Positions 27,159 through 61,939 of a stretch of DNA of 64,000 nt are shown here, piece by piece (position 1 is the first letter of the stretch; every line of letters starts with the position of its first letter). A program made the translations under genes and the position numbers. Under the pieces are notes generated by a model. The model was not told where the DNA came from. It was given only the letters and a program-made list of their open reading frames with translations, and ran no database searches. The stretch spans positions 1 to 64,000 of the forward strand of contig JAGAPO010000041.1 of NCBI GenBank assembly GCA_017623215.1. The letters run 5' to 3'. The DNA is from Lachnospiraceae bacterium (GTDB taxonomy: Bacteria > Bacillota > Clostridia > Lachnospirales > Lachnospiraceae).

Positions 27159-27944
27159 TTATCTGGCTCTGAATTTGCTTGGGGTAATATTATAATATTG
27201 CTTAAATACACGATTAAAGGTGTGTTGATTCTCAAAACCGGATTCCATGCAGATATAGGTTATGGTATGGTCTGTAGTTCTGATTAGCTTTGCCGCGTAA
27301 TCTAAACGAATCCGGTTGATGTATTCATTAAAGCTAATGTGTAGTGTTTTGGAAAACACCCGGGATATCTGGAATTTACTAACACCAAGTTCCTTGGACA
27401 ACGAATCTAAACTAAGCGGTTCCTGAAAATGGAGCACAATATAGTTTAACAGCCGGTTTGCCAGAGCAGGTGATGAGTTAACATCCGTAGTAAGAAGAGG
27501 GAGTTGTGGTATTGTGCGTCCCAGAACGAGATGTAAAAAGGCCTTTTGGATATTGATGTCCTTTTCCGTGTGCCTGTCTTCTTCTAAACGTTTTAGAGCA
27601 TATAAAACGTCAGAGTGCAATTCTTTATGTGTTAGAATTGGATTGCTTGGAATGGACTTGAAAAAGTATTGGGAAAACTCCGGAAGCAGTTCTGTTTCAC
27701 AACTGATAAGCAGATTTTCCGAGATGTTTCCCTCTTCTGTGTAATAGCCATGTACCTGGTTCGGGAAAATAATAGCTAACGAACCGGCAGGCATGTCATA
27801 ATCCTTGTCATCAATTATGATATTTAATAGACCTGCGTTGACATAGACCAGTTCAACAGCGTTATGCAAGTGTACCGGGAATTCTAAGTCACTTCTGCAT
27901 ATGACACGCATTCTGGCAAAAGGAGTTTCATAAAAAGGAATCAT
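27159..27944 (-). CDS. AraC-family regulator of the glycan locus
   Basis: A 261-residue transcription factor with an N-terminal cupin sensor (LEFPVHLHNAVELVYV, about residues 18-33) and two C-terminal helix-turn-helices: LSLDSLSKELGVSKFQISRVFSK, then ITYICMESGFENQHTFNRVFKQYYN with the end ITPSKFRAR. It probably senses a sugar and activates the neighbouring promoters. I start at ATG 27944 because a purine-rich AAGGGGGG lies upstream; an in-frame ATG at 27989 has no SD. It is divergent from the glycosidase genes, and the shared gap carries a motif repeated before the gene at 30108. Confidence 0.88.
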   Translation of the reverse strand: MIPFYETPFARMRVICRSDLEFPVHLHNAVELVYVNAGLLNIIIDDKDYDMPAGSLAIIFPNQVHGYYTEEGNISENLLISCETELLPEFSQYFFKSIPSNPILTHKELHSDVLYALKRLEEDRHTEKDINIQKAFLHLVLGRTIPQLPLLTTDVNSSPALANRLLNYIVLHFQEPLSLDSLSKELGVSKFQISRVFSKTLHISFNEYINRIRLDYAAKLIRTTDHTITYICMESGFENQHTFNRVFKQYYNITPSKFRAR

Positions 27945-27974
27945 TGAATAAAGTCCCCCCCTTTCTTTAGTGGT

Positions 27975-28037
27975 GCAATATTTGTCCATGATTACCCGAT
28001 GTTTTGATAAATATTATAGTGCAGTTAATGATATAAT
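27975..28037 (+). promoter_or_regulatory. AraC-type activator site plus -10, copy 1
   Basis: GCAATATTTGTCCAT (27975-27989) lies exactly 57 bases before TATAAT (28032-28037). In the same register, TTTTGA.AA.TATTAT occurs between them. Copy 2 at 30011-30073 has identical 15-mer, identical spacing and the same inner matches. No good -35 hexamer is present in either copy, as expected for an activator-dependent promoter. The 15-mer lies between the two possible AraC starts. Confidence 0.7.
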
Positions 28038-30872: not shown

Positions 30873-31726
30873 GAGTAGAAGACATCCATCTTTGTGACCC
30901 TTTTGTTCTTGTTCACGATGGAAAGTATTATATGTACGGAACTAGAGGTCTTGAGCGTTGGGAGAATGAAGCGTTCGGCTTAGACGTTTATGTTTCAGAG
31001 GATCTGATTGAGTGGAGTGAACCCAAGGAAGTTTTCAAGAGAACTCCGGAATTTCCTTACACAATGAATTACTGGGCTCCAGAAGTTTACAAATATGATA
31101 ATCGCTTTTTCATGTTCGTGTCCTTCAAAGCGCCGGATGTATGCCGAGGTACGGCAGTTCTTGTCTCGGATACTCCGGATGGAATGTTTACCATGCACTC
31201 TGATGGCGTTGTTACACCAAAGGACTGGGAGTGTTTGGATGGAACATTGTATGTAGCAGAAGATGGAACACCGTATATGATTTTCTGCCATGAATGGGTA
31301 CAGACAACGGATGGACAAATGTGTGTAATACCGTTAACAAAAGACTTAAAGGCCGCAGCGGGGGAACCGAGACTTTTATTTACGGCATCCCAGTCAGAAT
31401 GGATTAATAAGCCTGCAGAGGTTTACATTACAGACGGACCATTCATGTACCGCATGAAAAATGGCGATTTATATATGATTTGGTCTGCATCAGGTAAGGG
31501 CGGTTATTCTGTTGGCCTGGTTAAGTCCGACAACGGAGACATTTCTGGAAACTGGACCCATGTCAAAGAACCACTATTTGCAGAAAACGGCGGACACGGA
31601 ATGATATTTGAGACATTGGACGGAAGAAAAATGCTTTCGTTACATGCTCCGGAATATTTTCCGGCAGAACGTCCGAGATTTTATGAAGTAAAAGAAACAG
31701 AAGATGGACTTACCGTAGTTTGGTAG
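30869..31726 (+). CDS. GH43-family glycosidase, atypical catalytic motif
   Basis: A 285-residue single-domain five-bladed propeller protein. The Asp base is in [18 protein letters not shown] (D10) and the pKa-tuning Asp/Glu region is near [11 protein letters not shown]. Where canonical GH43 enzymes have the acid Glu in an EGP motif, this one has [12 protein letters not shown] (about residues 185-196), so the Glu is replaced by Asp or the acid lies elsewhere. Family activities are arabinofuranosidase, xylosidase and galactosidase. No signal peptide. Some gut GH43-like proteins share the TDGPF form, so this may be a subfamily trait rather than a defect. Confidence 0.82.
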
Positions 31727-31810
31727 TCAAGAGGGACCTGATAATTCATTTTTGCAGATGCATGCAGAAATAAATTATATATGTGTGAAACACAAGAATG
31801 GAGGTGCTTT

Positions 31811-33544
31811 ATGAAACACAAGAAATTACTTAGTATGTTACTTGTTCTGTGCATGGTCGTTTCCATGATGACAGCATGTGGCAACAAGGGAGAAAACGAG
31901 ACTCTGGATCCGACTCCTACCACAGCAGTGCAGCAGGGCGGAGAGGAAACTCCTGACCCAACAACAGAGCCTGATCCAACAAAGGAACCTGAAGCGACTC
32001 CTACGCCGACACCGGTGCCTGAATTTTGGACAACCTTAGATCCAGACACAGCAGGTGAAATTACCATCGCATTGAAAGATGGTGACGGCGTATATTATGA
32101 GGATCTCGGTTCTCAGGAGATTAACGAGTGGGATATAACTACTAGCAATGTAGCAGCGCTTTATGCTATGGCAAAGGAATTTAAAAAGCATTATCCAAAC
32201 GTAAAGATTAATCTTTACACCATTGCAGGTGACTGGGATTCCACGGGTGTTTCCTGGGAGCAGGTAATTGAAAACTTTAAGCTTCAGTATGGTGAGTATC
32301 CTGATATCTGGTTAAGCAGAAACTCCCTTAACGACCTTTCCAAGGGCTTAATCGCGGACCTTTCCAGATATGAAGACGATCCTTTATATCAGAGTTTGAA
32401 TCAGAGTGCTATGTCTCAGATGAACCATTATGGTGTACAGACAGGTCTTCCAACCGGCTTACAGGCATATGGTGTTTGGGTGAATAAGACTCTGGCTGAG
32501 CAGAACAACATTGATGTTCCGGATGTTGACTGGACCTTAGATGATTATACCGATTTTATTGGTGGAGCAGCTGGAAAGGAATTCTATGGAGCAATGGACA
32601 GCCCAATGGGCTTCCTTGATATTATGACCAAGGATATCGACTATATGTTTACACATAGAGATGGTTCCGGTGCATACATCGATATTACAACAGATGCAGT
32701 AAAAGATATTTTATCTTATGTAACCGAATGGTCCCAGACGACCGTATGGCCACAGTACGAAATCGGCAATGTTACAAACGAAGTTATGGATGCCGGTTGG
32801 TGGGATGAATACCATTTCTTCAAAATTGAATCTACGCTTACGTTAAACGGTCAGCCATGGATGATGCCTTATACAAATGGTGATCCAGATGGAAATAACA
32901 CGTTACTGTTTGAGTATGATATTTATCCATACCCTTCCAGTGATTATGTAGATAATTCTGTAAGTGTTATTCCACAGCAGATTTCTCTTTATAACCATGC
33001 ACTTTCCGATGGCAATCAGGAATTAAGCGAAAGCGAAGCAGCAAATCTTGACTTAGCATATGCTTTTGCAAGCTGGTGGGTAGGTACTACAGAAGCTATG
33101 CAGGCAAGAGCAAATCAGCAGTTTAATTCCTGGGGGTGGTTAGCTTCTGCTTTATCCGATCTTCTTCCTGCTGCAACAGGTGAGACTTTTGATGAGCAGA
33201 TGGAACTTTGGTATGCTACCGATTCCTTTGCTCCGTATAAGGATTTGGAAGGTTGGAACACCGTTGTTGAACTCGTAAAGAATGGTCAGTTCTGGAATGT
33301 TAATAACCAGACCATGGCAGTTAAGTACATGGAAGACGGTGTTTCTAACGGATGTTACTGGGAGTGGCAGAGCTTATATTCCACCATCGATGCAAGACGT
33401 GCTTCTGATGAATTTATTGACGAAATCAAGTCCAAATTGGTAGAATGGAATGAAACATTTAATAACAGATTTGCGTTAGCAGATAAGCAGTTACAGGAAT
33501 CCTTAATCAATTATTACGGTTTCACCGCAGCTGGTTTTAACTAA
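31811..33544 (+). CDS. sugar ABC transporter solute-binding lipoprotein 1
   Basis: A 577-residue family 1 type extracellular binding protein. The signal peptide ends in the lipobox MMTACGN. A Thr/Pro-rich linker (PTTAVQQGG, PTPTPVPEF) follows, then the binding domain beginning GEITIALKDGDGVYYEDLG with AKEFKKHYPNVKINLY. I start at ATG 31811 behind GGAGGTG; an in-frame upstream ATG lacks a signal. It is followed by a terminator-like hairpin that would keep this gene more abundant than the downstream permeases. Confidence 0.9.
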   Translation: MKHKKLLSMLLVLCMVVSMMTACGNKGENETLDPTPTTAVQQGGEETPDPTTEPDPTKEPEATPTPTPVPEFWTTLDPDTAGEITIALKDGDGVYYEDLGSQEINEWDITTSNVAALYAMAKEFKKHYPNVKINLYTIAGDWDSTGVSWEQVIENFKLQYGEYPDIWLSRNSLNDLSKGLIADLSRYEDDPLYQSLNQSAMSQMNHYGVQTGLPTGLQAYGVWVNKTLAEQNNIDVPDVDWTLDDYTDFIGGAAGKEFYGAMDSPMGFLDIMTKDIDYMFTHRDGSGAYIDITTDAVKDILSYVTEWSQTTVWPQYEIGNVTNEVMDAGWWDEYHFFKIESTLTLNGQPWMMPYTNGDPDGNNTLLFEYDIYPYPSSDYVDNSVSVIPQQISLYNHALSDGNQELSESEAANLDLAYAFASWWVGTTEAMQARANQQFNSWGWLASALSDLLPAATGETFDEQMELWYATDSFAPYKDLEGWNTVVELVKNGQFWNVNNQTMAVKYMEDGVSNGCYWEWQSLYSTIDARRASDEFIDEIKSKLVEWNETFNNRFALADKQLQESLINYYGFTAAGFN

Positions 33545-33553
33545 ATCGTACTT

Positions 33554-33588
33554 AAGCCTTCTGCTTCGGATGGAGCAGAAGGCTTTTT
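33554..33588 (+). terminator. attenuating terminator after binding protein 1
   Basis: AAGCCTTCTGCT (33554-33565) pairs perfectly with AGCAGAAGGCTT (33574-33585), followed by three more T and then A. The short T run suggests partial read-through into the giant binding protein 16 bases later. Confidence 0.8.
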
Positions 33589-33603
33589 AAAAGGAGCAAT
33601 AGT

Positions 33604-36558
33604 GTGAAGAACAAATGGAAGGTTGTTTTACTTGGGGTAACCGTGGCAGCGATTATAATTGTCCTGGGGGCTTTGATTCGTTTACGGGACAAAGAAAAAG
33701 AAGCTATATGGGTATCGGAAGAAGAGAGGGATGCAGCGTTTGAATTACTGAATCAGTCTCTTAATTTTCCTACCACCAGATATCATGAATATTTGGCAGG
33801 ATTAGAATTTGTCTATGGTTTAGGGGAAACGAAGGCGGAGCCTTTGAACGGAGAATTAAATGATGCATACGGTATGGCGCTGCAGCTTGATTATGATGCA
33901 ACGGCTACTTATGCGGTTACTATTGAAAAAGATGGGGTATATAGTTTTGGACTGGATTACAGTACCGGTGGAACAAATTTATCCGACTATAGAGTTGCAA
34001 TTACTGTGGATGGACAGTCTTACTATGATGAAATGTCCATGGTGACATTGCCGCTGTTGTGGGAAGATGAAACAAAAGAGTTTCCTTTGGACCGATATGG
34101 AGACGAAACAGTACCGGAACAGATTCGTATCGACGATTGGAGATACCGGGATTTATATAATACCTCTTATTATACAGCAGAACCGCTTTATGTTTACTTA
34201 GAGAGCGGTACACATGAAATTTGCGTGCAGAATGTCTCTGCCGACGGTTTAGTACTTGGAACCTTGTATGTGAATGGAGCAAAGGAACAGGCACCATCTT
34301 ATGATGACTACAGAGCAAGCCATTCCGGTGAGCTTAGTGATGCCTTTTTAGAGATAAATAGTGTGGATTATGTAAATAAAAATTCATCTTCCGTATTTTT
34401 ATCTCACATTAATAATCCGGCATTAAAGCCTCACAATAGTGAGTACAAGGAACTAAATACGTTGTCCTGGTATCAGGCGGGCATTGAGGTTAACTATGAG
34501 GTAACCGTCCCTCAAACAGGATACTATCGTTTGGCATTACATTATAAAAACGAAAAAGAAGATTTTCAGGTATTTGAAACCATTAAGATTGATGGAGAAG
34601 TACCTTTCAGGGAATTAGAAAGCTATGGTTTTGATTCAACGGACTCCGCTTGGAAGAATGAGGTTCTTTCTGATGAAAATGGCACTCCATATGAGATTTA
34701 TTTGACCGAAGGAACCCACACAATTACCATTCGTTCTGAAGTAGAACCGGTAACAAGACAGTGGAGATATACCAGACTGATATCAGAGCATGTAACGCAG
34801 TTTGCGCTGGAAATTAAGAAAATTACTGGTGAAAGCATTGATGAAAACCGTACCTGGCATATTACCAAGTACCTTCCGCAAACAGTGGATTACTTAGAGG
34901 CATATGCCACCCTAATCCGTTGGATTCAGCAGGAATCTGCGGCATTTTCTGAGCATGGTGTGGATTCGGTTAAGCTGGAAGAATTAAACCGGGCACTGGA
35001 AATTATCGAGGAAATTGCTGAATATCCGGATGAAATTCCGCTTTATATGGAAAACCTTACGGGCTCAAGCTCAGGAAACTCTATTTTAAAGGTGGTTGGT
35101 AATTTCTCGGTGGATATGATGGCTCAGCCGTTTGCTTTGGACCGTATTTATCTGTACGGAACTGATGAGCTTCCACAAGAAGAAGCAGGATTCCTTGCTT
35201 CGTTCAAGAATGGATTTATGGGACTGGTATATTCCTTTACTTCCGAAAAATATAAACCGGATACCGAGGATGAGGAAGCGGTTAACATCTGGGTAAACCG
35301 TTCCGTAACCCAGGTAGACCTGCTTCAGAAACTGGCGGATACCGAGTTTACAACTAAAACAGGAATCAAGGTAAAGCTTTCCGTCATGCCGGACGCAAAC
35401 AAGCTTCCAATGGCCACGGCAGCCAATGAAACACCAGATATGGCGCTTGGTATAGGTTCCTCTTTTGAACTTACCTACCGTGATGCCCTTTATGACATGA
35501 CACAGTTTGAGGATTTCTGGGAAGTGGCAGACAGTGTGGTTCCGGGTACTTTGGTTCCATTTATATACAACGAGGGAATTTATGGTTTTCCGGAAACTAC
35601 GAATTTCAACCTTGTAATTTACCGTAAGGATATTTTTGAACAGTTAGAAATGGAAGTACCAAGCACCTGGGACGATTTGATTGGTATTTTACCAAAACTT
35701 CAGCGCTACGGTATGAATTTCTACCATGATATTGCAACAACGAGCGGCTACAAGTATTTTTATCAGACTGTGCCGATGATTTACCAAAATGGTGGCAAGC
35801 TGTATTCCGAAGACGGATTACGAACGGTAATCAATGAGCCGGAAGCAGTAAAGGGAATTAAGACTTTGGGTGAATTGTTCAGTATTTATTCCCTGCCAAC
35901 CCAGGTTGGTTCCTTTATGGAGTCTTTCCGTTATAATATTTGTCCAATCGGTATTGTTAATTTGGATAACTATATTGTAATTAAAAATGGTGCAACAGAA
36001 TTGGAAGGTCAGTGGGCATTGGCACCATATCTTGGAACAGTACAGGAAGACGGAACCATAGACCGAAGTTATGTTACAGGTGGTGTCGCAGCTATTATTT
36101 TTGAGGACACGGAAAAAGCAGAAGAGTGCTGGGAATTCATTAAGTGGTGGATGAGCACGGAGGTGCAAAGCCGTTATGCATATACCTTGCAGTTAACCTT
36201 TGGTGATGATTATATCTGGTTGTCTGCCAATAAGGAAGCATTAGAAAATTCCACACTTCCGGCAGAAGATAAGCGTCTGATTCTGGAACAGTTACAGCAT
36301 TTAAAAAATGTGCCAAGAACACCGGGCGATTATATGTTAGAGCGTAGCTTGTCCAATATTTGGAATACTGTTGCAATCAATGGTTCTTCCGCACAGGTTG
36401 CCATTGACGAAAAGATGCAGGAAATCAATCGTGAGCTTACCAAAAAGATGTCCGATCTTGGCTTTTCTGATACCGAAGGAAATATGATAAAGGAATATAA
36501 ATTCCGTGACGTGAATTGGATTATTCAGAACATTGAAGAACACAGAAAGGGGGAATAA
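33604..36558 (+). CDS. giant membrane-anchored binding protein with N-terminal carbohydrate-binding-like domains
   Basis: A 984-residue protein. One membrane helix at about residues 7-27 has no lipobox Cys, so it should be an uncleaved anchor. Residues 60-420 look like two beta-sandwich ligand-binding modules (EKDGVYSFGLDYSTGG, YVYLESGTHEICVQNV; and VPQTGYYRLALHYKNEKED, YLTEGTHTITIRSEV). A helical segment follows, and from about 570 a family 1 solute-binding domain (KTGIKVKLSVMPD, NFNLVIYRKDIFEQL, CWEFIKWWMSTEVQSRY). GTG start at 33604 with AAAAGGAG upstream. It directly precedes the first permease pair. Ordinary binding proteins are 400-550 residues. Confidence 0.85.
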   Translation: MKNKWKVVLLGVTVAAIIIVLGALIRLRDKEKEAIWVSEEERDAAFELLNQSLNFPTTRYHEYLAGLEFVYGLGETKAEPLNGELNDAYGMALQLDYDATATYAVTIEKDGVYSFGLDYSTGGTNLSDYRVAITVDGQSYYDEMSMVTLPLLWEDETKEFPLDRYGDETVPEQIRIDDWRYRDLYNTSYYTAEPLYVYLESGTHEICVQNVSADGLVLGTLYVNGAKEQAPSYDDYRASHSGELSDAFLEINSVDYVNKNSSSVFLSHINNPALKPHNSEYKELNTLSWYQAGIEVNYEVTVPQTGYYRLALHYKNEKEDFQVFETIKIDGEVPFRELESYGFDSTDSAWKNEVLSDENGTPYEIYLTEGTHTITIRSEVEPVTRQWRYTRLISEHVTQFALEIKKITGESIDENRTWHITKYLPQTVDYLEAYATLIRWIQQESAAFSEHGVDSVKLEELNRALEIIEEIAEYPDEIPLYMENLTGSSSGNSILKVVGNFSVDMMAQPFALDRIYLYGTDELPQEEAGFLASFKNGFMGLVYSFTSEKYKPDTEDEEAVNIWVNRSVTQVDLLQKLADTEFTTKTGIKVKLSVMPDANKLPMATAANETPDMALGIGSSFELTYRDALYDMTQFEDFWEVADSVVPGTLVPFIYNEGIYGFPETTNFNLVIYRKDIFEQLEMEVPSTWDDLIGILPKLQRYGMNFYHDIATTSGYKYFYQTVPMIYQNGGKLYSEDGLRTVINEPEAVKGIKTLGELFSIYSLPTQVGSFMESFRYNICPIGIVNLDNYIVIKNGATELEGQWALAPYLGTVQEDGTIDRSYVTGGVAAIIFEDTEKAEECWEFIKWWMSTEVQSRYAYTLQLTFGDDYIWLSANKEALENSTLPAEDKRLILEQLQHLKNVPRTPGDYMLERSLSNIWNTVAINGSSAQVAIDEKMQEINRELTKKMSDLGFSDTEGNMIKEYKFRDVNWIIQNIEEHRKGE

Positions 36559-36561
36559 ACG

Positions 36562-37464
36562 GTGAAAATGCGAAAGAAATATAATAGTGATCTTTGGACA
36601 GCTGTTGCATTATTGGCGCCGTATTTGCTGTTATTTTCTCTTTTTATTGCCATTCCCGTCATCATTGCTATTGGTTTATCTTTTACCTATTTTGATGGCG
36701 TGAATTTTCCAAGTTTCGTTGGCTTGTCAAACTATATTTCGTTATTAACCCAGGATGAGATATTTTTGAAATATGTCATTCCAAATACCTTCAAATATGC
36801 CCTGATTGTGGGACCGGGCGGTTGTGTGCTTTCTTTTATACTTGCATGGATGGTTACACAGATTCAGGCCGTTCCGAGAACAATTTTAACTCTTTGTCTG
36901 TATATGCCGTCTATGGTTGGTTCCCTGATGGTGCAGATTGTCTGGGTAACTATCTTCAGTGGTGACCAGAGAGGTTTGTTAAATTCATTTTTACTGAAGA
37001 ATGACTTTATCGATGTGCCGATTGACTTTTTACAGGACCCAAAGTATTTAATGACAATTATCATCATTGTTGCACTCTGGCAGTCCATGGGCATTGGCTT
37101 CCTTGCAATGATTGCCGGTATTCTGAATGTAAATGATGAGTTATACGAAGCAGCATATGTAGACGGTATGAGAAACCGTTTCCAGGAAGTAATTTATATT
37201 ACCATTCCGTCCATGAAGCCTCAGATGCTGTTTGGTGCGGTTATGGCGATTGTAAATGCGTTTAGTACCGGATGGCTCGGACCAGCACTTTCCGGTTCGA
37301 ATCCTACTCCGGAATATTCGGGTAACGTTATATTGAACCATATTGAAGACTATGCGTATACTCGTTATGAAATGGGTTATGCGGCTGCTATTTCTGTGGT
37401 ACTGCTTTTGATGGTAGCATTTTTCTCCAAGGTAGCAGGTGCCTTGTTTTCGGAAAAGAAGTAA
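36562..37464 (+). CDS. sugar ABC permease 1a
   Basis: A 300-residue CUT1-family permease with six hydrophobic segments. The first, [20 protein letters not shown], is near residues 15-34. The EAA loop contacting the ATPase is [20 protein letters not shown] (about 192-211). GTG start behind AAAGGGGGAA, 3 bases after the giant binding protein gene, so translationally coupled. No ATPase gene occurs in the locus, and an MsmX-like shared ATPase is expected elsewhere. Confidence 0.92.
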
Positions 37465-37476
37465 GGAGGGGAGACC

Positions 37477-38355
37477 ATGGCAAAAAAGAGATTAAAGGGA
37501 AGAAGAGGAAATCCAAAATACTTTTCTGCGGATCAGCTTAAGTTTTATCTTATCCTGATTCCGCTTGCAATTATCATGGTACTTCCGGTGGTTTATATGT
37601 TCAGTGAGGCATTTAAACCATTGGGAGAGTTGTATGCGTTTCCTCCGATTCTGATTACAAAAAATCCTACCATGACAAATTTTAAGAAGTTGTTTGAATT
37701 ATCCGGTTCTACCGGTGTTCCAATGACAAGATATCTCTTAAACTCCGTCATTATTGCGGGAGTAACAGTTCTTGTAAATATTTATATCACGGTTGCCTGT
37801 GCCTTTGTATTGTCTAAAAAAGGAAAATATAAGGTGACAAAGTGGTTTTTCAGCCTGAACCAGACAGCGCTTATGTTTGTTCCGGTAGCGGTTACCGTAC
37901 CAAGGTATATCTTAATTGTTAAGATGGGTATGATTGACACCTGGGCAGTGCACATTTTTCCGCTCATTGCCATGCCGATTGGTATTTTCTTAATGAAGCA
38001 GTTTATTGATGATGTGCCGGATGCATTGATTGAGGCGGCCTATGTGGATGGTGCAGGAAATTTCACTGTACTTAGAAAAATCATTATGCCGATGACAAAG
38101 CCGGCAATTGCTACGGTTGCCATTTTAACTTTCCAGTCCGCCTGGTCGGCAACAGAAGCATCCAATAACTTCATTACCAGTGATGTTATGAAAACCATTT
38201 ACTATTATTTGAATGCATTATCGGTAAGTAATACAGTGGCAACCCGGGGCGTTGTGGCGGCAGGTTCGATTCTTTTATTTATTCCGAATTTGATTATCTT
38301 TATTTGCATGCAGTCCCGAGTGATGAGTACTATGAGTCATTCCGGTATTAAGTAA
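37477..38355 (+). CDS. sugar ABC permease 1b
   Basis: A 292-residue CUT1-family second permease. Helix 1 is FYLILIPLAIIMVLPVVYMF. FSEAFKPLGELYAFPP follows, as usual in this subunit, and the EAA loop is PDALIEAAYVDGAGNFTVLRK (about 183-203). AAGGAGGGG precedes the ATG. It pairs with permease 1a and is followed after 14 bases by the NHL-YIP1 gene. Confidence 0.92.
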   Translation: MAKKRLKGRRGNPKYFSADQLKFYLILIPLAIIMVLPVVYMFSEAFKPLGELYAFPPILITKNPTMTNFKKLFELSGSTGVPMTRYLLNSVIIAGVTVLVNIYITVACAFVLSKKGKYKVTKWFFSLNQTALMFVPVAVTVPRYILIVKMGMIDTWAVHIFPLIAMPIGIFLMKQFIDDVPDALIEAAYVDGAGNFTVLRKIIMPMTKPAIATVAILTFQSAWSATEASNNFITSDVMKTIYYYLNALSVSNTVATRGVVAAGSILLFIPNLIIFICMQSRVMSTMSHSGIK

Positions 38356-38369
38356 GGAAGGAGCACAGA

Positions 38370-40421
38370 ATGAGAAAAGTATTATATGGCTTGCTGGTTT
38401 TGTGCCTGGCAATGCAAATAATGAGCCCTGCAGTAAAAGTAGAGGCTTCTCAGACAACAACCTACACTTACACTGTGGTAGATGAGTCAAACGGTGACGG
38501 GAAGTCTCATTTGGCCCGTACTCAGGATGCTTATATTCCCGAGCGCACCATTACGGAGCTTGGCTTGGATTCGCCGTCTGACATTTTTGTTGACAAGAAT
38601 GGTGTGCTGTATATTGCAGATACGGGAAATAAGCGCATTGTGAAGTACGAAATAGCTACCGACGAGTGCTTAGAAGAATTGAAATATGAGGAATTTGTGA
38701 CTCCAAAGGGCATTTATGTAACAGGTAACGGAGATATCTATGTGGCAGACAGCCGTGCGGGTGCTCTGTTCATTTTTGACAAGGAGCATAATTTGAAAAA
38801 TAAAATTGTCCGCCCGGATGTTCCTGCCTTTGGTGATACTCCGTTTGACCCACACAAGGTGGCTGCAGATGAAAACGGAAACATCTATGTGGTGGGGGAA
38901 GGTGTTTATGGTGGTATTATTCAGTTGACCACAGATGGCAACTTTCTTGGGTTCTTTGCGGTAAATGAAGCAAGGCTTACCATGCTGCAGCGTATACAGC
39001 AGCTCATATTCACAAGAGAGCAGATGGAAAAGATGTCGGATATCAATCCGGTTACCTTTGCAAACGTGGGAATTGACCACAGAGGCATCGTATATACCGT
39101 AACTATGGGCGAAACCATTAATGGCATTAAGAAACATAAAACGAACGGAACCAACATGTTTACGGAAACATTGTACTGTAATGAGGATGTAACCGATGTT
39201 TGGATTGATGAGAACTTATTTGTGTTTTCCAGCTCTAAGAGTGGATACATTGATGTATATACACCGCAGGGCGAACTTATTTTTGAATTTGGTTCTAATG
39301 AAACACAGCTGGATGTAGCCGGTTTGTTTTCTTCTCTGGTGTCTATTGCAGTGGACGCAAGTGGAAATATTTGGGCAATTGATGGTACAAAGGGATATGT
39401 GCAGTCGTTCCATCAGACAGAATATGCTAACCAGGTGTATGAAGCACTTTTATTGTACGAAGGCGGCTACTATAATGAGGCACTTGCCGTGTGGGATGAA
39501 GTGCTTACCTTAAACCAGATGTCGGTAATTGCTCACAACGGAATCGGTAATGCCTACATGTCCCAGTATGACTTTGAAAATGCTATGGAGCATTACAAAA
39601 TTGCAGGAAATCACGAAAAATATTCCGATGCTTTTTGGGAATTGCGGAATATCTGGCTGCAAAGGTATCTGGCGTATTTTCTGATTGGAATTGTGGTGCT
39701 TGTGGCGGCAGTATATGCGGTAAGCAGACTGGATAAAAAGAAGAAAATCCAAGGTGCTGCAGAAGCAGTGGCAAAATCCTGTAATAGCATCAAAGGAGTA
39801 AAAGATCTGTTTTATGCTTTGCGTGTTGCAGGACATCCGCTGGATACTTACTACGATATCAGGGTAGGTAAGACGGGTACTGTATTCGGAGCAACTATAT
39901 TGTATGTATTGTTGTTTGTGTCCTTTATGTTCTATATGATTGGTAAGGGATTTATCTATCAGTACCAGGATGTTCAGGAAATGGACATCAGTTCCATCGT
40001 CATCGGATTTTTTGCGTTACTTGGTTTATTTGTGGTTTGTAACTATCTGGTAACCTCCATTAACGACGGTGAAGGAAGCTTAAAGCAGGTATATATGCTG
40101 CTTGCCTATGGCACAATGCCATTGATTATTGCATTGGTATCTGTTACGGTGCTTTCTTATGTGGTAACAACAAATGAAGCATTTTTCCTGACGGTGGGTC
40201 TGGCGATTGGAGCGGTTTGGACAGTCATGCTTATTTTCCTTGGATTGCAGACTGTACACAACTATTCGGTGAAAGAAACCATAGCCTCGATTGTTCTAAC
40301 TTTTGTTCTTATGGGCGTTGTAGTTGTTGTGGTAATGGTTGTAACTATTATGTGGGATCAGGTATGGTCATTCTTAAGTACGGTTGGAGAGGAGTTGAAG
40401 CAGTATGTGTTTAACAGGTAA
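38370..40421 (+). CDS. secreted NHL-repeat / TPR / YIP1-family membrane protein
   Basis: A 683-residue protein with four parts. A signal peptide (first about 27 residues, ending VEAS) comes first. An NHL-type propeller follows with repeated units such as PSDIFVDKNGVLYIADTGNKRIVKY, shown here only in part: LYIADTGNKRIVKY, IYVADSRAGALFIFD, VSIAVDASGNIWAIDG. A short TPR-like stretch covers about 355-410 (ALAVWDEVLTLNQMS, NAMEHYKIAGNHEKY). Then one membrane helix (near 432-452) and a YIP1 domain of about five helices (FYALRVAGHPLDTYYDIR onwards). The propeller should be outside. Its role in uptake is unknown, but it sits between two permease pairs and overlaps the next gene by 17 bases. Confidence 0.82.
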   Translation: MRKVLYGLLVLCLAMQIMSPAVKVEASQTTTYTYTVVDESNGDGKSHLARTQDAYIPERTITELGLDSPSDIFVDKNGVLYIADTGNKRIVKYEIATDECLEELKYEEFVTPKGIYVTGNGDIYVADSRAGALFIFDKEHNLKNKIVRPDVPAFGDTPFDPHKVAADENGNIYVVGEGVYGGIIQLTTDGNFLGFFAVNEARLTMLQRIQQLIFTREQMEKMSDINPVTFANVGIDHRGIVYTVTMGETINGIKKHKTNGTNMFTETLYCNEDVTDVWIDENLFVFSSSKSGYIDVYTPQGELIFEFGSNETQLDVAGLFSSLVSIAVDASGNIWAIDGTKGYVQSFHQTEYANQVYEALLLYEGGYYNEALAVWDEVLTLNQMSVIAHNGIGNAYMSQYDFENAMEHYKIAGNHEKYSDAFWELRNIWLQRYLAYFLIGIVVLVAAVYAVSRLDKKKKIQGAAEAVAKSCNSIKGVKDLFYALRVAGHPLDTYYDIRVGKTGTVFGATILYVLLFVSFMFYMIGKGFIYQYQDVQEMDISSIVIGFFALLGLFVVCNYLVTSINDGEGSLKQVYMLLAYGTMPLIIALVSVTVLSYVVTTNEAFFLTVGLAIGAVWTVMLIFLGLQTVHNYSVKETIASIVLTFVLMGVVVVVVMVVTIMWDQVWSFLSTVGEELKQYVFNR

Positions 40422-42852
40422 AAAGCGGTTTGCAGTATTATTTGCCGGGATACTTGCCGGTACAATTACACTTACTTCTGTATATGCTGCAACAGAAAAA
40501 GACTCTTCGAATAACGGTAGTACGTCGGTTGGCAGCACAAGCTATATCAGTACCAACCGCGACACAAGACTTCCGGAAGAATCTATCGAAATTAAGGAAC
40601 AGAGTGTAGCGGATTATGAAAAATTGTATGAGACGGAATCTGCCATATATTATTTTAGGGATGACCGGGATATTATTGCAGTTTATGATAAGGAAAGCGG
40701 ATATCTTTGGAAAACCGGACTTGACAGCGGTATTGGCAAGGATTTAAAGAAGCTGGCAAGAAACGCTGAAACAGAGGAAGAATTAGCCTATTTGGAGCGT
40801 AATCCAATAGAAGAAAACTTAAATGAGGTTTATGCCTACTTTGCGAATTCTCTGGTTTCTATTGAGTATAAAAAGGAAGGAAGTGTTGAAAGTTCCAAGA
40901 AGGCATCTTCTTCCGATGGGGATTCGGTGTCTGAACTTTCTAAGCTTGATGATAACAAATATTGTTTATCGGTAGACTTTGCTGCGGCGGCAGTGCAGTT
41001 AAAGATGTACATTACCTTTGGCGAAAAAGAAATCACCTATGATATTCCTTATGAGGAAATTACGGGAGAAGGAAAGGCTTATCTGTATGAATTGTATATC
41101 ACACCATTCCTTGGTTCCAGTGGTGGTGAAGTAACCATATTTAATCGCGAAAAAGGAAAGTATGATGAAACTGTAAAAAAGGATACTCCATCCGGTTATG
41201 TATTTCTTCCTGACGGCAGTGGCGCCTTGGTAAGATTCCGTGATAATGCGGTATCATTTCAAACATATGTGGGTGATGTGTATGGTGCGGATGTTTCTCA
41301 GGGTGAGTACTATCACAGGGAGTTAACGGATGCTGTTGCATTAAAGGAGCCGGTTATGCCGGTATTTGGCGTGGCCTACGGAAACAATCAGGTGGCCTTT
41401 GTTGCGTATGCCGAGCAGGGCGACGAATACATGAGCATTTGCCTTACTCCGGAAGAAAACATAACCTACTACACTTGGGTTACACCAAAGTTTAGCTACA
41501 ATACAAAATATCACCAGGTGTATAACAAAGCAGGCAGCGGCTTCTTTACTTTGCTGAAAGAAGCAAGAAATTTTGATATTACCATGACCTATGAATTTTT
41601 AACCGGAGACGGCAGTGGGTCAACAGAGGCAGCAAATTATAGCGGTATGGCACTGGCCTACAGAAATCATTTGCTGGAAAAAGGTATTCTGACGGAACAA
41701 GCAGTGGAAGAACAGTCCGCCCTTCCGCTTCGTTTGGACTTTATTATGTCAGATTCCGAAAGCAGTATTGTAGGTACGAAAAATGTTGTAGTTACGACAG
41801 CAGAGGATGTACGTACCATTCTTGAGGATGTGATGGAAAACGGAATTACCAATATCAATTCCGGCTTGTATGGCTGGCAGAAGAAGGGGGTTTCTATTGC
41901 AAAGCCATATACGCAGAAGTTTAGCTCGGCCATTGGAACGAAAGCTCAGTTTAAAAAGCTGTTTGAAGATTTTGCTGCAATGCAGGTGGATATTTCCTAT
42001 GGACAGGACTACGTTACCATTAATGAATTGATGATGAATTATTATCAGAATGCAGTACGTCACATGAGTTCCTGGTATGTGGAAGAAAATAGGGAAAGTC
42101 TGCTTCCAGATTCGGTTCCGACTGCTATTTTTGGCTATGCAGCACCGAATAAGAGTGCAGAATGGCTTCTTACTCAGTTTGAAGCTGTGAAGGACTATTC
42201 TGCTTCTATGACAGTGCAGGGAATCGGAAGTGTTCTTACCGGTAATTACATCAGCAAAGATGAGATTATTACTGTGTCGGATACGATGGAACTGTATCAG
42301 GAAACTTTAAGTGTGATTGGAGAAGAAGTACAGTTGAATGTGGAGAATCCGCACAAATACCTTTGGCAGTATGTCGACCGTTATTTGCAGGCTCCGGTAG
42401 GGCATTCCCAGTATATTTTTGAAACGGATGCGGTTCCGTTCCTGCAGATGGTGCTTTATGGAACAATGGAAGTGTATGGTCCGTATTCCAACTTCTCCTT
42501 CTATACGCAGAAAGACATTTTGAAGATGATTGACTATAATATTGCACCGTCCTTTATTTTGTCTATGGAGCCATCCTATAAGCTGGCTGATACAGTAAGC
42601 TGTGACTTGTATTCTACGGAATATTCCTTATATGAGGATCTGATTCAAGCTGTTTATGGTCAGGTAAATCAGGTATGGAAACAGATTAGTGGATACAACT
42701 GGGTAAGCCGCACGGTAGTGGCAGATGGAGTTATTGTAAACACCTATGAGCAAAACGGCTTGGTAAAAGAAGTTGTGATTAATTATACTTTAAATGATGT
42801 TACTTATCAGAACGTAACGGTAGGAGCAGAAAGTGCTCTTGTATTGGAATAA
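40405..42852 (+). CDS. DUF5696 family secreted protein
   Basis: An 815-residue protein with an N-terminal signal sequence (FAVLFAGILAGTITLTSVYA, residues 9-28) and no later membrane helix that I see. The first 300 residues are beta-rich (AIYYFRDDRDIIAVYDKESG, GYVFLPDGSGALVRF, YGADVSQGEYYH). The second half looks like an alpha/beta barrel (LRLDFIMSDSESSIVGTKN, VRTILEDVMENGITNINSG, SAKWLL-like stretches such as SAEWLLTQFEAVKDYSASM). DUF5696 has no established activity to my knowledge. The gene is cotranscribed with ABC permeases, and a role in glycan binding or cleavage at the surface is inference. It overlaps the YIP1 gene end by 17 bases. Confidence 0.8.
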   Translation: MCLTGKKRFAVLFAGILAGTITLTSVYAATEKDSSNNGSTSVGSTSYISTNRDTRLPEESIEIKEQSVADYEKLYETESAIYYFRDDRDIIAVYDKESGYLWKTGLDSGIGKDLKKLARNAETEEELAYLERNPIEENLNEVYAYFANSLVSIEYKKEGSVESSKKASSSDGDSVSELSKLDDNKYCLSVDFAAAAVQLKMYITFGEKEITYDIPYEEITGEGKAYLYELYITPFLGSSGGEVTIFNREKGKYDETVKKDTPSGYVFLPDGSGALVRFRDNAVSFQTYVGDVYGADVSQGEYYHRELTDAVALKEPVMPVFGVAYGNNQVAFVAYAEQGDEYMSICLTPEENITYYTWVTPKFSYNTKYHQVYNKAGSGFFTLLKEARNFDITMTYEFLTGDGSGSTEAANYSGMALAYRNHLLEKGILTEQAVEEQSALPLRLDFIMSDSESSIVGTKNVVVTTAEDVRTILEDVMENGITNINSGLYGWQKKGVSIAKPYTQKFSSAIGTKAQFKKLFEDFAAMQVDISYGQDYVTINELMMNYYQNAVRHMSSWYVEENRESLLPDSVPTAIFGYAAPNKSAEWLLTQFEAVKDYSASMTVQGIGSVLTGNYISKDEIITVSDTMELYQETLSVIGEEVQLNVENPHKYLWQYVDRYLQAPVGHSQYIFETDAVPFLQMVLYGTMEVYGPYSNFSFYTQKDILKMIDYNIAPSFILSMEPSYKLADTVSCDLYSTEYSLYEDLIQAVYGQVNQVWKQISGYNWVSRTVVADGVIVNTYEQNGLVKEVVINYTLNDVTYQNVTVGAESALVLE

Positions 42853-42866
42853 AAAGGAGAGAATTT

Positions 42867-43778
42867 ATGGCGAATCAAAAGAAAAAGAAAAAACGTAAAA
42901 GCTCCTTTCAAAGAAGACAAAACCGCCTTGGTTATTTATTTATGGCACCATGGATTATAGGATTTATAGTGTTTGCCTTCATTCCGTTTTTTATGACCTT
43001 TTATTTGAGTTTTACGGATGTGAAGCAGGACATTAATGGATTTAACATCACCTTTGCAGGAATTAAGAACTATAGGGAAGCATTTTTTGTTAATCCTGAC
43101 TTTACCATAAATTTAGGTTCTTCCCTGGCAATGATTATTCCATACACGGTGATTATTGTTATCATGTCCTTTATTCTTGCCATGATGTTAAATTCCATTC
43201 AAAAGGGCAAATCCTTGTTTAGAACCATATACTTTCTTCCGGTAGTTGTTTTATCCGGTCCGGTTATGTATCAGCTGATGGACTTGACTACCGAAGCAGA
43301 AGGCCAGACAAGCAAGCTGGAATATACCTTTGTTGTTCGTATGATTGCAAGTTATTCTCAGGACATTGCAGACGTTTTGGTATCCTTGTTTGAGAATTTG
43401 TCCACGATTTTATGGTTTACCGGCATCCCGATTGTGTTGTTTATCAATGGTCTCCAAAAAATTAATCCAAGCATGTTTGAGGCTGCAAGAATTGACTCCG
43501 CAACAAGCTGGCAGATTCTTTGGAAGATTATTATACCGATTATCCGGCCAACCGCATTAATTGTAACAATTTTTACTATTGTCCAGCTGGGGGCCATGGA
43601 TAAGATTAACGCGGTGTTGGATCAGATTCAGCAAATGACGAGTAATACCGCCGGCGGTCTCGGTTATGCGGCAGCCTTGTCTTGGATTTACAGTATTATT
43701 ATTCTTGCGATTATTGGTTTGGCAGTATTGCTATTTAGAGAACGTAAGACAAAAATCAAACATTATATTTGGGGATAG
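42867..43778 (+). CDS. sugar ABC permease 2a
   Basis: A 303-residue CUT1-family permease with a Lys/Arg-rich N-terminus, six helices (first: MAPWIIGFIVFAFIPFFMTFY) and an EAA-type loop NPSMFEAARIDSATSWQILWK (about 205-225). AAAAGGAG precedes the ATG, 14 bases after DUF5696. It is the third permease of the locus and forms a second pair with the next gene. Confidence 0.92.
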   Translation: MANQKKKKKRKSSFQRRQNRLGYLFMAPWIIGFIVFAFIPFFMTFYLSFTDVKQDINGFNITFAGIKNYREAFFVNPDFTINLGSSLAMIIPYTVIIVIMSFILAMMLNSIQKGKSLFRTIYFLPVVVLSGPVMYQLMDLTTEAEGQTSKLEYTFVVRMIASYSQDIADVLVSLFENLSTILWFTGIPIVLFINGLQKINPSMFEAARIDSATSWQILWKIIIPIIRPTALIVTIFTIVQLGAMDKINAVLDQIQQMTSNTAGGLGYAAALSWIYSIIILAIIGLAVLLFRERKTKIKHYIWG

Positions 43779-43788
43779 GAGGTATAAT

Positions 43789-44676
43789 ATGGCGAAAAAG
43801 ATTGGAAAGCTGACGATATACTTTTTGCTTGTCTGTATCGGCTATATCTATTTGGAACCGCTTATTAAAATGGTTTCTATGGCTATCATGTCCTCGGATG
43901 ATATTATTGACCCGGCGGTAGAGTGGATTGCCAGAAAACCAACCTTTGACAATTTCAAAATAGCTGCAAGTGTGTTAAAGGTAAAAAAGAGCATGATAAC
44001 ATCTTTGGTGTTTTCTGCTTCCATTGCGGTACTGCAGACCATAGTTTCCGCAATGACAGGATATGCACTTTCCAGATTTAAGTTTAGTGGAAAGAAATTC
44101 TGGTTTACCATGATTTTATTTACTTTTATTATGCCGGTGACGGTGTTAATGATTCCAAGATTGATGATTTTTGTAGGAATCCGTACCGTGTTCGGTATCC
44201 AGCTGCTTGGTACTCCAATTCCGCAGGCGTTAATGGCAGTACTGGGGCAGGGAATTAACGGAACGATTCTGATTTTGATTTTCTGGAACTTTTTTAATAT
44301 GATTCCGTATACCTTGGATGAGGCAGCGATGATTGATGGCGCGGGTCCATTCCGTGTATTTTACCACATTGCGGTGCGCTTATCCTTATCTACGGTGTTA
44401 ATTGTGTTCCTGCTTGCTTTTGTATGGAACTGGAATGAAACCTATCAGGCAGCAACTTATCTTGGCGGTAAGTTAGAACTGATGCCATTAAAGCTTGCAA
44501 GCTTTGATGCAGTCTTTAACAGTGAAAGCGCTTCTGCAGGGGGCGACCTGAAATTAAATGAAGCATATAAAATGGCGGCAACCTTAATTTCTATTGCACC
44601 GCTTCTAATTTTGTATGCCTTTGTACAAAAACAATTTATTCAGGGTATTGAAAATACCGGTATTACGGGAGAATAA
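43789..44676 (+). CDS. sugar ABC permease 2b
   Basis: A 295-residue CUT1-family permease. Helix 1 is KLTIYFLLVCIGYIYLEP. The EAA loop is PYTLDEAAMIDGAGPFRVFYH (about 173-193). Start 43789 is set by ATAGGAGG. With permease 2a it makes a second complete membrane channel in the same operon. Either there are two importers, or the four permeases serve the two binding proteins. Confidence 0.92.
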   Translation: MAKKIGKLTIYFLLVCIGYIYLEPLIKMVSMAIMSSDDIIDPAVEWIARKPTFDNFKIAASVLKVKKSMITSLVFSASIAVLQTIVSAMTGYALSRFKFSGKKFWFTMILFTFIMPVTVLMIPRLMIFVGIRTVFGIQLLGTPIPQALMAVLGQGINGTILILIFWNFFNMIPYTLDEAAMIDGAGPFRVFYHIAVRLSLSTVLIVFLLAFVWNWNETYQAATYLGGKLELMPLKLASFDAVFNSESASAGGDLKLNEAYKMAATLISIAPLLILYAFVQKQFIQGIENTGITGE

Positions 44677-44880: not shown

Positions 44881-44901
44881 GATGCATTGGAGGAGATAGG
44901 T

Positions 44902-47316
44902 ATGAGTGATGGATTATTAGCGATGGAAACCCATTTTAATATTCTCGGGGAAAAAATAGTTACACCGGGAATTTCTGCAATTGCGAGACAATGTGGCAGT
45001 GAAGGCATGGTTTTATTAAAGAATAATGGTGTGCTTCCTTTAAAACAGCAGGAAAAAATTGCTGTGTTCGGAAGATGCCAGGTGGATACCTTTATGGTTG
45101 GTTACGGAAGTGGCGGTGACATTCATCCGCCGTATTCCGTTAACATTCTAAATGGTTTAAGAAACAGTAACTCAGTACAGATATATGAAACACTGGCAAG
45201 GGCTTATGAAAATTGGTGTCATCAGCCGGAAAATATTGCAGATTCCGGAAGATACTGGTGGGGATGGTGGCCATTTTCCTACCCTGAAATGCCGTTATCT
45301 GAGGAAATGGCAGAAAATGCTGCAAAAGAAAGTGAGACAGCAATCTTTGTTATAGGCAGAGCTGCAGGCGAAGACCGTGATAATCGATTGGAGGAAGGAA
45401 GCTATTATCTGACTGTGCAGGAAAGGGAACAGCTGGAGATAGTGAAAAAGCACTTTTCTAAGATCATTCTGGTAATGAATTGTAGCAGTATTGTAGATAT
45501 GGCTTGGACTGAAGATGAAAAGTTTGATGCCATTATTTACATGTGGCTTGGCGGTATGGAAGGCGGCAATTCCCTTGCAGATCTTTTGACCGGAAAGGAA
45601 TCCCCAAGCGGTAAGCTGACATCCGCAATTGCCAGAGATATTAAGGATTATCCAAGCACTGCCAACTTTGGTGATCCGCAAAAGAATATTTATGAAGAAG
45701 ATATTTATGTGGGATACCGCTATTTTGAAACCTTTGCACCGGAGAAAGTGTTATATTCCTTCGGATATGGTTTGTCCTATACAACCTTTGAAACCACGGT
45801 GAAGGAGTTTTCGGTAAACGAGGATGCATTTTCTTGTACATTGGTAACGAAAAATACCGGTAATGCAGCTGGTAAAGAAGTGGTTCAATTGTATATGGAA
45901 GCACCACAGGGGGTGCTCGGTAAAGAACATAGACGTTTGGCAGCATATAAAAAGACAAAGAAACTTGCACCTGGTGAGAAGGAAGAAATAGTGCTTACTG
46001 TTGATAAACTTGAGATGGCAAGCTATGACGATTTAGGCAAGACAGGAATTTCTTCTGCCTGGGTAATGGAAGCAGGTACTTATAAGTTTTATGCCGGAAG
46101 AAGCGGACTTAATGGAAAGCTTTGTTATGACATAGTTGGTTCCTTTGAACAAGAGGAACTTTGTGTGGTTGAACAGTTAAAGCCGATTTGCTCCTTGCAG
46201 GAACCAATTAGCAGAATCAAGCCGATTGGAACATCAATTCCTGCTGCTCTTGGAAAAGAAGAAGTTCCGGTGGGACCTGTGGATTTAAGACAGAGGATTT
46301 TGGATCATTTACCAAAGGAAGCACCATATACCGGTGATAAGGGAATAAAATTTCAGGATGTATGTGCAGGAAGAGCGGAACTGGATGATTTCATTGCGCA
46401 GCTGACAGAAGAGGAACTTCAGTCCTTAACCCGCGGTGAGGGCGGTATTGAACGTCCAAGAGGAATTGAGGGCAACCAGGGAATTTTTGGTGGCTTCTAT
46501 CCGCCGGTGGAAGAAAAGGGAGTGCCGCTTATTATTACCGATGATGGTCCTGCAGGACTCAGAATCAGCTATTATACATCGCTGCTTCCGTGCGGCACCG
46601 TGCTTGCTGCTACCTTTAACGAAGAACTGGTAGAATCACTGTATGAGCGTATCGCAGAAGAAATGGAACGTTTTAGAATCGATGTTATGCTGGCGCCGGG
46701 CATTAATATTCAAAGAAATCCACTGTGCGGTAGAAATTTTGAATATTATTCCGAAGACCCATATTTGGCAGGAAAGATAGGCTGTGGTGCAGTTCGTGGT
46801 CTTCAGAGCAGAGGACGTTCTGCGTGTACAAAGCATTTTGTATGTAATAATCAGGAGACTGAAAGATATACCAACAATTCGGTGCTCTCGGAACGTGCCC
46901 TGAGAGAAATATATATTAAGGCATTTCGTATGTGTGTGACACAAGCAAAACCCAAGATTGTAATGATGTGTTATAACAAGGTGAATGGGGTATGGGGACA
47001 TTATAATTATGATCTTGCAACGACAGTGCTCCGCGAAGAGTGGAAACATGCAGGTATGGTAGTTACAGACTGGTGGATGAGAAAAGCACCAAGTCCGGAA
47101 TTCCCTGAGATGAGAGATAATGCATACCGTATCAGAGCACAGGTGGATGTGTTAATGCCAGGTAATGACGGTCCGGGAGATGGTCATATCAGATATTATA
47201 ATCCGGATGAAACGCTGTTAGAAACCTTAGGTAAGGAAAATGGCATCACAAGAGATGAAATTCACCGTTCGGTAAGACATGTTTTAAATTTCTGTAAGCA
47301 GACAGTCCAGCGGTGA
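44902..47316 (+). CDS. GH3 beta-glycosidase, circularly permuted domain order
   Basis: An 804-residue GH3 enzyme with its domains in swapped order. The alpha/beta sandwich comes first (ISAIARQCGSEGMVLLKNNG near residues 26-45; GGMEGGNSLADLLTGKESPSG). A fibronectin-like domain follows (YSFGYGLSYTTFE, KEVVQLYMEAPQG). The (beta/alpha)8-type domain is last (PLIITDDGPAGLR, APGINIQRNPLCGRNFEYYSE, with STKH-like ACTKHFVCNNQE). The nucleophile Asp is in GMVVTDWWMRK (D723). Permuted GH3 enzymes are known in Ruminococcus and relatives. Likely cytoplasmic beta-glucosidase/xylosidase-type activity; exact specificity unknown. ATG 44902 is set by GGAGGAG; a TTG at 44887 is in frame but inside the SD. Confidence 0.9.
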   Translation: MSDGLLAMETHFNILGEKIVTPGISAIARQCGSEGMVLLKNNGVLPLKQQEKIAVFGRCQVDTFMVGYGSGGDIHPPYSVNILNGLRNSNSVQIYETLARAYENWCHQPENIADSGRYWWGWWPFSYPEMPLSEEMAENAAKESETAIFVIGRAAGEDRDNRLEEGSYYLTVQEREQLEIVKKHFSKIILVMNCSSIVDMAWTEDEKFDAIIYMWLGGMEGGNSLADLLTGKESPSGKLTSAIARDIKDYPSTANFGDPQKNIYEEDIYVGYRYFETFAPEKVLYSFGYGLSYTTFETTVKEFSVNEDAFSCTLVTKNTGNAAGKEVVQLYMEAPQGVLGKEHRRLAAYKKTKKLAPGEKEEIVLTVDKLEMASYDDLGKTGISSAWVMEAGTYKFYAGRSGLNGKLCYDIVGSFEQEELCVVEQLKPICSLQEPISRIKPIGTSIPAALGKEEVPVGPVDLRQRILDHLPKEAPYTGDKGIKFQDVCAGRAELDDFIAQLTEEELQSLTRGEGGIERPRGIEGNQGIFGGFYPPVEEKGVPLIITDDGPAGLRISYYTSLLPCGTVLAATFNEELVESLYERIAEEMERFRIDVMLAPGINIQRNPLCGRNFEYYSEDPYLAGKIGCGAVRGLQSRGRSACTKHFVCNNQETERYTNNSVLSERALREIYIKAFRMCVTQAKPKIVMMCYNKVNGVWGHYNYDLATTVLREEWKHAGMVVTDWWMRKAPSPEFPEMRDNAYRIRAQVDVLMPGNDGPGDGHIRYYNPDETLLETLGKENGITRDEIHRSVRHVLNFCKQTVQR

Positions 47317-61907: not shown

Positions 61908-61939
61908 TGACTTAATTATTGAATAGAAGAGGGTTGAAT

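Follow-up and report, generated by a model that had tools for sequence, protein, structure and literature searches.

An eight-gene module in a Lachnospiraceae genome joins two CUT1-type permease pairs with an NHL-TPR-YIP1 protein and a DUF5696 protein of GH129-like fold

We analysed a stretch of 64 000 nt (referred to as the window) from contig JAGAPO010000041.1 of a Lachnospiraceae bacterium assembly (GCA_017623215.1). Eight tightly packed plus-strand genes at positions 31811–44676 are probably one copy of a conserved two-channel CUT1-type ATP-binding cassette (ABC) importer of glycan fragments that possesses a non-catalytic capture platform. The run begins with a lipoprotein-like solute-binding protein (SBP) of the family designated SBPb (SBP1, 31811..33544) and a giant SBP of 984 residues (33604..36558), followed by a MalF/UgpA-like and a MalG/UgpE-like permease (A1, 36562..37464; A2, 37477..38355), an NHL-TPR-YIP1 fusion protein (38370..40421), a DUF5696 protein (40405..42852) and a second pair of MalF/UgpA-like and MalG/UgpE-like permeases (B1, 42867..43778; B2, 43789..44676). 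Distances between successive genes are 59, 3, 12, 14, −17, 14 and 10 bases. All the open reading frames (ORFs) listed in the initial annotation are present in the order given there, and Pfam supports each of them except SBP1, with weak support for B1. The start of SBP1 is an in-frame ATG located after GGAGG (the longest ORF begins at 31781), the giant SBP and A1 start with GTG, and the start of B2 lies at about 43789 within an ORF whose longest form begins at 43666.

In the mechanism that we propose, surface hydrolases would cut a polysaccharide, and the platform, made of CBM35-like domains of the giant SBP, the DUF5696 protein and the NHL propeller with TPR helices tethered by YIP1, would hold the fragments at the membrane. 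The fragments would then be handed to two channels, the heterodimers A1/A2 and B1/B2, fed by the two binding proteins and perhaps dividing the labour between them. Both channels, which can each couple to an ATPase, would be energised by a shared, separately encoded UgpC/MsmK ATPase.

Conservation of the module was assessed in two sets of loci, with the DUF5696 search covering Bacillota together with control genomes, plasmid records and phage records. The first set comprised 80 loci that a GTDB genome scan returned with DUF5696 as its seed, hence selected for this protein, and was characterized by profile searches with the window proteins; the second comprised 29 full-length DUF5696 loci, 27 of them from 398 evenly drawn Bacillota genomes and two from close relatives. 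The common order in the first set was (SBPb) - giant SBP - A1 - A2 - NHL/YIP1 - DUF5696 - B1 - B2 - (SBPb), and deviations occurred only where the contig or stretch ended or an ORF was broken. In the second set NHL/YIP1 and B1/B2 were present in 29 of 29 loci. Pair A was found in the same stretch in 24 of them and was absent from the stretch in five (L114, L115, L119, L123 and L130); cassettes A and B were swapped in 5 of the 24 (L122, L126, L131, L132 and L145), while in L120 pair A was located beside a short SBP. The recurrence of the same order across Bacillota, accompanied by pairwise component distances that correlate with r = 0.84–0.95 over 82 complete modules, rules out chance clustering of the eight genes, and the initial view of a conserved, dedicated multi-gene uptake system is borne out. 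The co-occurrence check suggested at that time also came out in its favour, as no case of DUF5696 (with NHL/YIP1) away from ABC permeases came up among about 109 loci.

Among the 398 genomes of the even draw, a strong DUF5696 match was observed in 38 and a strong match to the N-terminal domain of the giant SBP in 39, with both in 37 (Fisher P = 1.4e-48), spread over 16 family codes. The mismatches were produced by assembly ends: in one genome (G140) a 125-bit hit runs from base 1 of the contig, and in two others (G141 and G189) the contigs that carry the genes, 3788 and 4307 bases long, break off within permease A1. Because the exceptions are all located at contig ends, genomes with unlinked cassettes still hold both; the module thus consists of two cassettes that are separable yet found in the same genomes. 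Copy numbers of the cassettes, counted in 24 genomes with some counts including fragments and with incomplete assemblies adding noise, were equal in 18 genomes and higher for B in six (A:B of 4:10, 4:10, 9:19, 6:11, 4:8 and 5:6), A being higher in none. Such numbers suggest that B cassettes may multiply while relying on fewer A cassettes.

Genomes of family f33, with distant relatives of the N-terminal domain of the giant SBP, contain an A-like permease pair beside two ATPase genes, with no DUF5696 in the stretch. At L152 (G047:C9, 6934–14215) a pair-A relative stands beside two ATPase genes and a gene for a protein similar to carbohydrate-binding modules (CBMs) that has no SBP domain, with no DUF5696. 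Judging from sequence, these A-like loci may be relatives of cassette A.

The four permeases, of the BPD_transp_1 type, have all kept the EAA loop, with Glu in 84–100% and Gly in 76–100% of sequences. The two residues were found, respectively, in 100% and 100% of A1 sequences (n = 88; Pfam E-value of window A1 2.8e-15), 99% and 100% of A2 (9.4e-13) and 84% and 100% of B2 (8.7e-11), the window B2 being without the usual final Pro; in B1 the Glu is present in 100% (n = 107). The window B1 has a BPD_transp_1 E-value of 0.0048, below the cut-off, and was assigned by its match to NCBIfam UgpA (3.8e-8). No ATPase gene is present within the window module. As had been anticipated, the ATPase is encoded elsewhere: a full UgpC/MsmK ATPase (501.6 bits versus a cut-off of 432) is found on contig 97 of the source genome (C97:9074-10177), with no adjoining permease gene of the module types. 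A full UgpC/MsmK ATPase was also detected in 26 of the 26 other module genomes tested, and in 20 it was the sole one at an E-value of 1e-100. On a plasmid of Paenibacillus cellulosilyticus (L158, NZ_CP054609.1) ugpC lies 37 bases upstream of the giant SBP gene; in genome G365 a UgpC-type ATPase gene (C6:68553-69683) is about 5 kb from the module. It is established that one multitask ATPase can serve several importers (PMC7658222, PMC4519317, PMC5730181).

SBP1 had no match in the Pfam search; it was called a binding protein because of its lipobox (MTAC), length and position, and in other copies its homologue is located either ahead of the giant SBP or behind the last permease. The giant SBP has an N-terminal membrane helix, two CBM35-like beta-sandwich domains (residues about 60–225 and 230–405), a helical linker and an SBP domain (about 560–950), as delineated from Pfam (SBP_bac_8/SBP_bac_1, E-value 1.8e-19), an N-terminal profile and a conservation map. 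The profile of the N-terminal 500 residues (A5) matched at two places both CITase (5x7g, 1.5e-9) and the carbohydrate-binding module of CsxA (2vzp, 7.2e-5), in regions that we take to be CBM35 domains; its coiled-coil matches fall in the helical linker and are uninformative. The extracellular sugar-binding protein that characterizes CUT1 importers is represented by the giant SBP on account of SBP_bac_8, and by SBP1 on account of position and lipobox only.

Complete EAA loops and an SBP of its own for each permease pair are also what one would expect if the locus encoded two ordinary CUT1 importers, not touching each other and co-inherited for two products of one polysaccharide, with NHL-YIP1 and DUF5696 serving importer B only. 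The swapped and the unlinked cassettes, as well as the excess of B in six genomes, agree with such an arrangement. Still, one contig-end case excepted, the survey found no B lacking A, and every A lacking B was located at a contig end; this is stricter than optional partners would predict, and most copies have A and B together in a single closely packed run. We therefore regard two separate importers as unlikely, while giving them more weight than the other alternatives considered below.

The NHL-TPR-YIP1 protein contains a signal peptide, a beta-propeller (residues about 55–350), TPR helices (351–412), a transmembrane helix (about 430–455) and a Yip1 membrane domain (about 489–675); Pfam identifies NHL, TPR and Yip1 within this one protein. 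In the AlphaFold2 model (pLDDT 85.9) we see a propeller, TPR helices, a long membrane-spanning helix and a helical membrane domain. The propeller matches NHL propellers (Foldseek 6e-15) and would be a glycan-binding part of the platform; no useful structural match was obtained for the YIP1 part, the Foldseek matches listed for the model being to the propeller only. A single NHL-YIP1 protein, as originally described for the window, occurs in 51 of 82 complete modules, whereas the other 31 encode NHL and YIP1 separately. On the DUF5696 tree the starred branches require five or more changes between the fused and the split state, a count to be taken as a guide given that the tree was built with FastTree and has long branches. 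Repeated fusion of neighbouring genes usually signals joint function, and the repeated fusion or splitting here points to NHL and YIP1 as interacting partners.

The DUF5696 protein (Pfam 4.3e-137) has a signal peptide followed by a supersandwich, a TIM barrel and a C-terminal beta domain, i.e. the fold of GH129 and GH101 glycoside hydrolases (GHs). The family profile (48 members) matches the Bifidobacterium bifidum GH129 structure 5wzn (E-value 2.1e-10) and a Zobellia GH129. An hhalign comparison with the GH129-like proteins of L136–L138, L141 and L142 gave a probability of 99.2% over residues 225–815, L142 itself being a clear GH129 (E-value of 1e-250 to 5wzn). The AlphaFold2 model (pLDDT 89.1, pTM 0.89) has as its top Foldseek match the Zobellia enzyme ZgGH129 (8rzk, E-value 3.5e-27, TM score 0.71 by target), and other GH129 and GH101 structures come next. 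The GH129 relatives used for comparison were taken from weak DUF5696 matches (L138, L141 and L142). Such weak matches in other genomes were ruled out as extra copies of DUF5696, since they are GH13, DUF6259 and GH129/GH101 proteins. A survey of Bacillota for GH129 returned zero matches and none anywhere at all, hence it is no proof of absence. Two unannotated faecal records filed as 'Bacteriophage sp.', MT835600.1 (L157) and MT835587.1, encode DUF5696 relatives (23% and 21% identity) and are probably bacterial DNA filed as phage.

In the profile alignment residues D435 and E478 of the B. bifidum enzyme NagBb, which we take to be the catalytic Asp nucleophile and Glu acid/base, correspond to Q605 and E647 of the window protein, located at the ends of successive barrel strands (601–605 and 643–647); the title of 8rzk (ZgGH129 D486N, Michaelis complex) fits an Asp in the nucleophile role. 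Both columns are variable among the 48 DUF5696 sequences: the nucleophile column has E in 10, R in 7, D in 6, S in 6, T in 5 and A in 4, the acid/base column has E in 13, S in 8, F in 4 and D in 3, and in only 7 of 48 sequences are both acidic. As the catalytic columns are not conserved, we did not file DUF5696 as a GH129 enzyme, and a plain hydrolase was rejected as the first choice. Since neither catalytic position is conserved, the protein is, judging by its sequence, most likely a pseudo-glycosidase that binds rather than cuts. Of the two roles, capture or processing, left side by side in the initial annotation, the first is favoured and the second disfavoured by a GH129 fold that lacks conserved catalytic residues.

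One has to consider, nevertheless, that DUF5696 may be enzymatically active, as a glycosidase or transglycosidase whose catalytic residues have moved, which would turn the module into a processing importer. Besides the fold, D270 is conserved in 47 of 48 sequences and position 710 is always acidic (E in 33, D in 15). Given that the family has not kept the catalytic positions which GH129 uses at the ends of beta-4 and beta-5, and that D270 sits in the supersandwich, outside the barrel, we find this improbable.

In the source genome (G000; 3.3 Mb in 115 contigs) DUF5696 is encoded by six full genes and by a seventh located at the edge of a contig, and five other regions show the same gene order as far as the contigs reach. 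In four of these five paralogues (L008, L010–L012) NHL and YIP1 are separate neighbouring genes. In the paralogue L009 (7274-10778, G000:C36) a response regulator and a histidine kinase that ends before its ATPase domain run into YIP1, with NHL and cassette A missing; from its sequence this arrangement appears to be a deletion or an assembly join. A split-form module is plasmid-borne in a rumen strain of Butyrivibrio fibrisolvens (pNP243, L156), alongside a GH43 gene and a two-component pair.

The window module itself adjoins, all on the plus strand, genes of GH35 (28272–30011), a PNP_UDP_1 phosphorylase (30108–30872) and GH43 (30869–31726) upstream, which are possibly co-transcribed with the module, and of GH3 (44887–47316) and GH123 downstream. 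The GH123 gene is divided into two ORFs (47562–48419 and 48426–49208) in the same frame, covering domain positions 1–111 and 121–324, a split which the sequence attributes to an in-frame stop or an assembly error. A divergent AraC-type regulator (HTH_18 and AraC_binding) is encoded at 27159..27989 on the minus strand, and a GH94 gene lies at 55190–57469; these neighbours were identified by Pfam. A further ordinary permease pair lies at 60933–62863, with best matches of 4e-16 to A1 and 1.6e-15 to A2. A promoter scan of the locus scored no better than shuffles.

With neighbours as mixed as GH35, GH43, GH3, GH123 and GH94, the substrate of the window copy is not fixed by context. Its nearest relatives are flanked by GH16 and GH5, with GH3, GH30 and GH94 in the same set, and this suggests a beta-glucan as a candidate substrate of the window clade. 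Pectin, on which the initial annotation proposed growing a native strain, is not supported specifically as the substrate of the window copy: the enzymes beside its nearest relatives (GH16, GH5, GH94 and GH3) are beta-glucan enzymes, and the pectate-lyase-like neighbours, found together with a histidine kinase and a response regulator, belong to the paralogues in the source genome. The substrate probably differs from copy to copy. After the module of P. cellulosilyticus come genes for several LLM class flavin-dependent oxidoreductases and for additional SBPs, a setting that hints at an uncommon substrate, perhaps a modified sugar or not a glycan at all. It is quite doubtful that the module serves to transport or sense a polymer made by the cell itself, of the cell wall or otherwise, or a solute other than a glycan: variable neighbourhoods, these oxidoreductases and the two-component genes beside several copies would fit, but the commonest neighbours in the window clade are glycoside hydrolases and phosphorylases, and the fold and CBM matches point to sugar-active proteins.

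Several observations weigh against a two-channel importer with a shared capture platform. The surplus of B over A in six genomes means that a fixed 1:1 complex is not universal, and two importers bringing in two products of one substrate would likewise agree with the co-occurrence in genomes. The correlation between the pairwise distances of the eight components is what any co-inherited operon would show, and is no proof of contact. Position 710 and D270 could mark, by their conservation, an unconventional active site as well as a binding site, and the P. cellulosilyticus copy has flavin-dependent oxidoreductases, not hydrolases, beside it. Finally, glycan binding, transport and assembly into a complex are predicted features of the system. 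With these points taken into account, we still find the two-channel importer with a non-catalytic platform the probable interpretation.

In comparison with type I importers of the CUT1 / MalFGK2 kind that use a shared MsmX/MsmK/UgpC ATPase, the module is alike in having an SBP, two EAA-loop permeases and an ATPase encoded elsewhere (PMC7658222); it adds a second permease pair, a second SBP (one of the two being giant and CBM-bearing), NHL-YIP1 and DUF5696, all kept as a set. An importer with no ATPase of its own in the operon is known for the cyclic glucan binding protein of T. decaturensis, and the accessible part of that source describes no such module (PMC13084667). DUF5696 shares its three-domain fold with NagBb (alpha-N-acetylgalactosaminidase), ZgGH129 (3,6-anhydro-D-galactosidase) and GH101, whereas it differs from the GH129 enzymes in the unconserved nucleophile and acid/base and in having ABC permeases beside its gene in every locus examined. 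Gram-positive polysaccharide utilization loci (gpPULs), such as the mixed-linkage glucan locus of Blautia producta, likewise bring together a regulator, hydrolases, a phosphorylase and an ABC importer; as far as that source was accessible, one SBP and permease and ATPase genes are described, and a second pair, NHL-YIP1 and DUF5696 are not (PMC10318527).

The SusCD utilisomes of Bacteroidetes are alike by analogy in placing non-catalytic glycan-binding subunits beside a transporter and in having many diversified copies per genome, according to the accessible part of the source (PMC7618045). They share no common protein family with the module, which is single-membrane and ATP-driven, and Pfam found no TonB-dependent SusC/SusD pair among the eight window proteins. 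One could speculate, and we do so tentatively, that all eight proteins form one membrane machine, with two ABC channels sharing the non-catalytic platform, reused across Bacillota with B cassettes that are exchanged to suit different glycans, as an independently arisen Gram-positive counterpart of Sus utilisomes. The open-licence literature, searched for DUF5696, for YIP1 in combination with ABC transporters and for similar terms, yielded no description of the system, although one elsewhere is possible; we consider it CUT1-type import with added conserved parts, apparently undescribed.

The module is present in about 10% of Bacillota genomes as estimated from the even draw, its named relatives belong to gut, rumen, soil and biogas lineages, and some genomes hold at least 10 DUF5696 matches. 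If a capture platform does operate in this system, it would explain how large glycans are held at the surface of single-membrane bacteria and would assign a function to DUF5696 and to bacterial YIP1-NHL proteins. The set would also serve as a marker for glycan-foraging loci, whose genes are at present annotated singly, with no name for the system.

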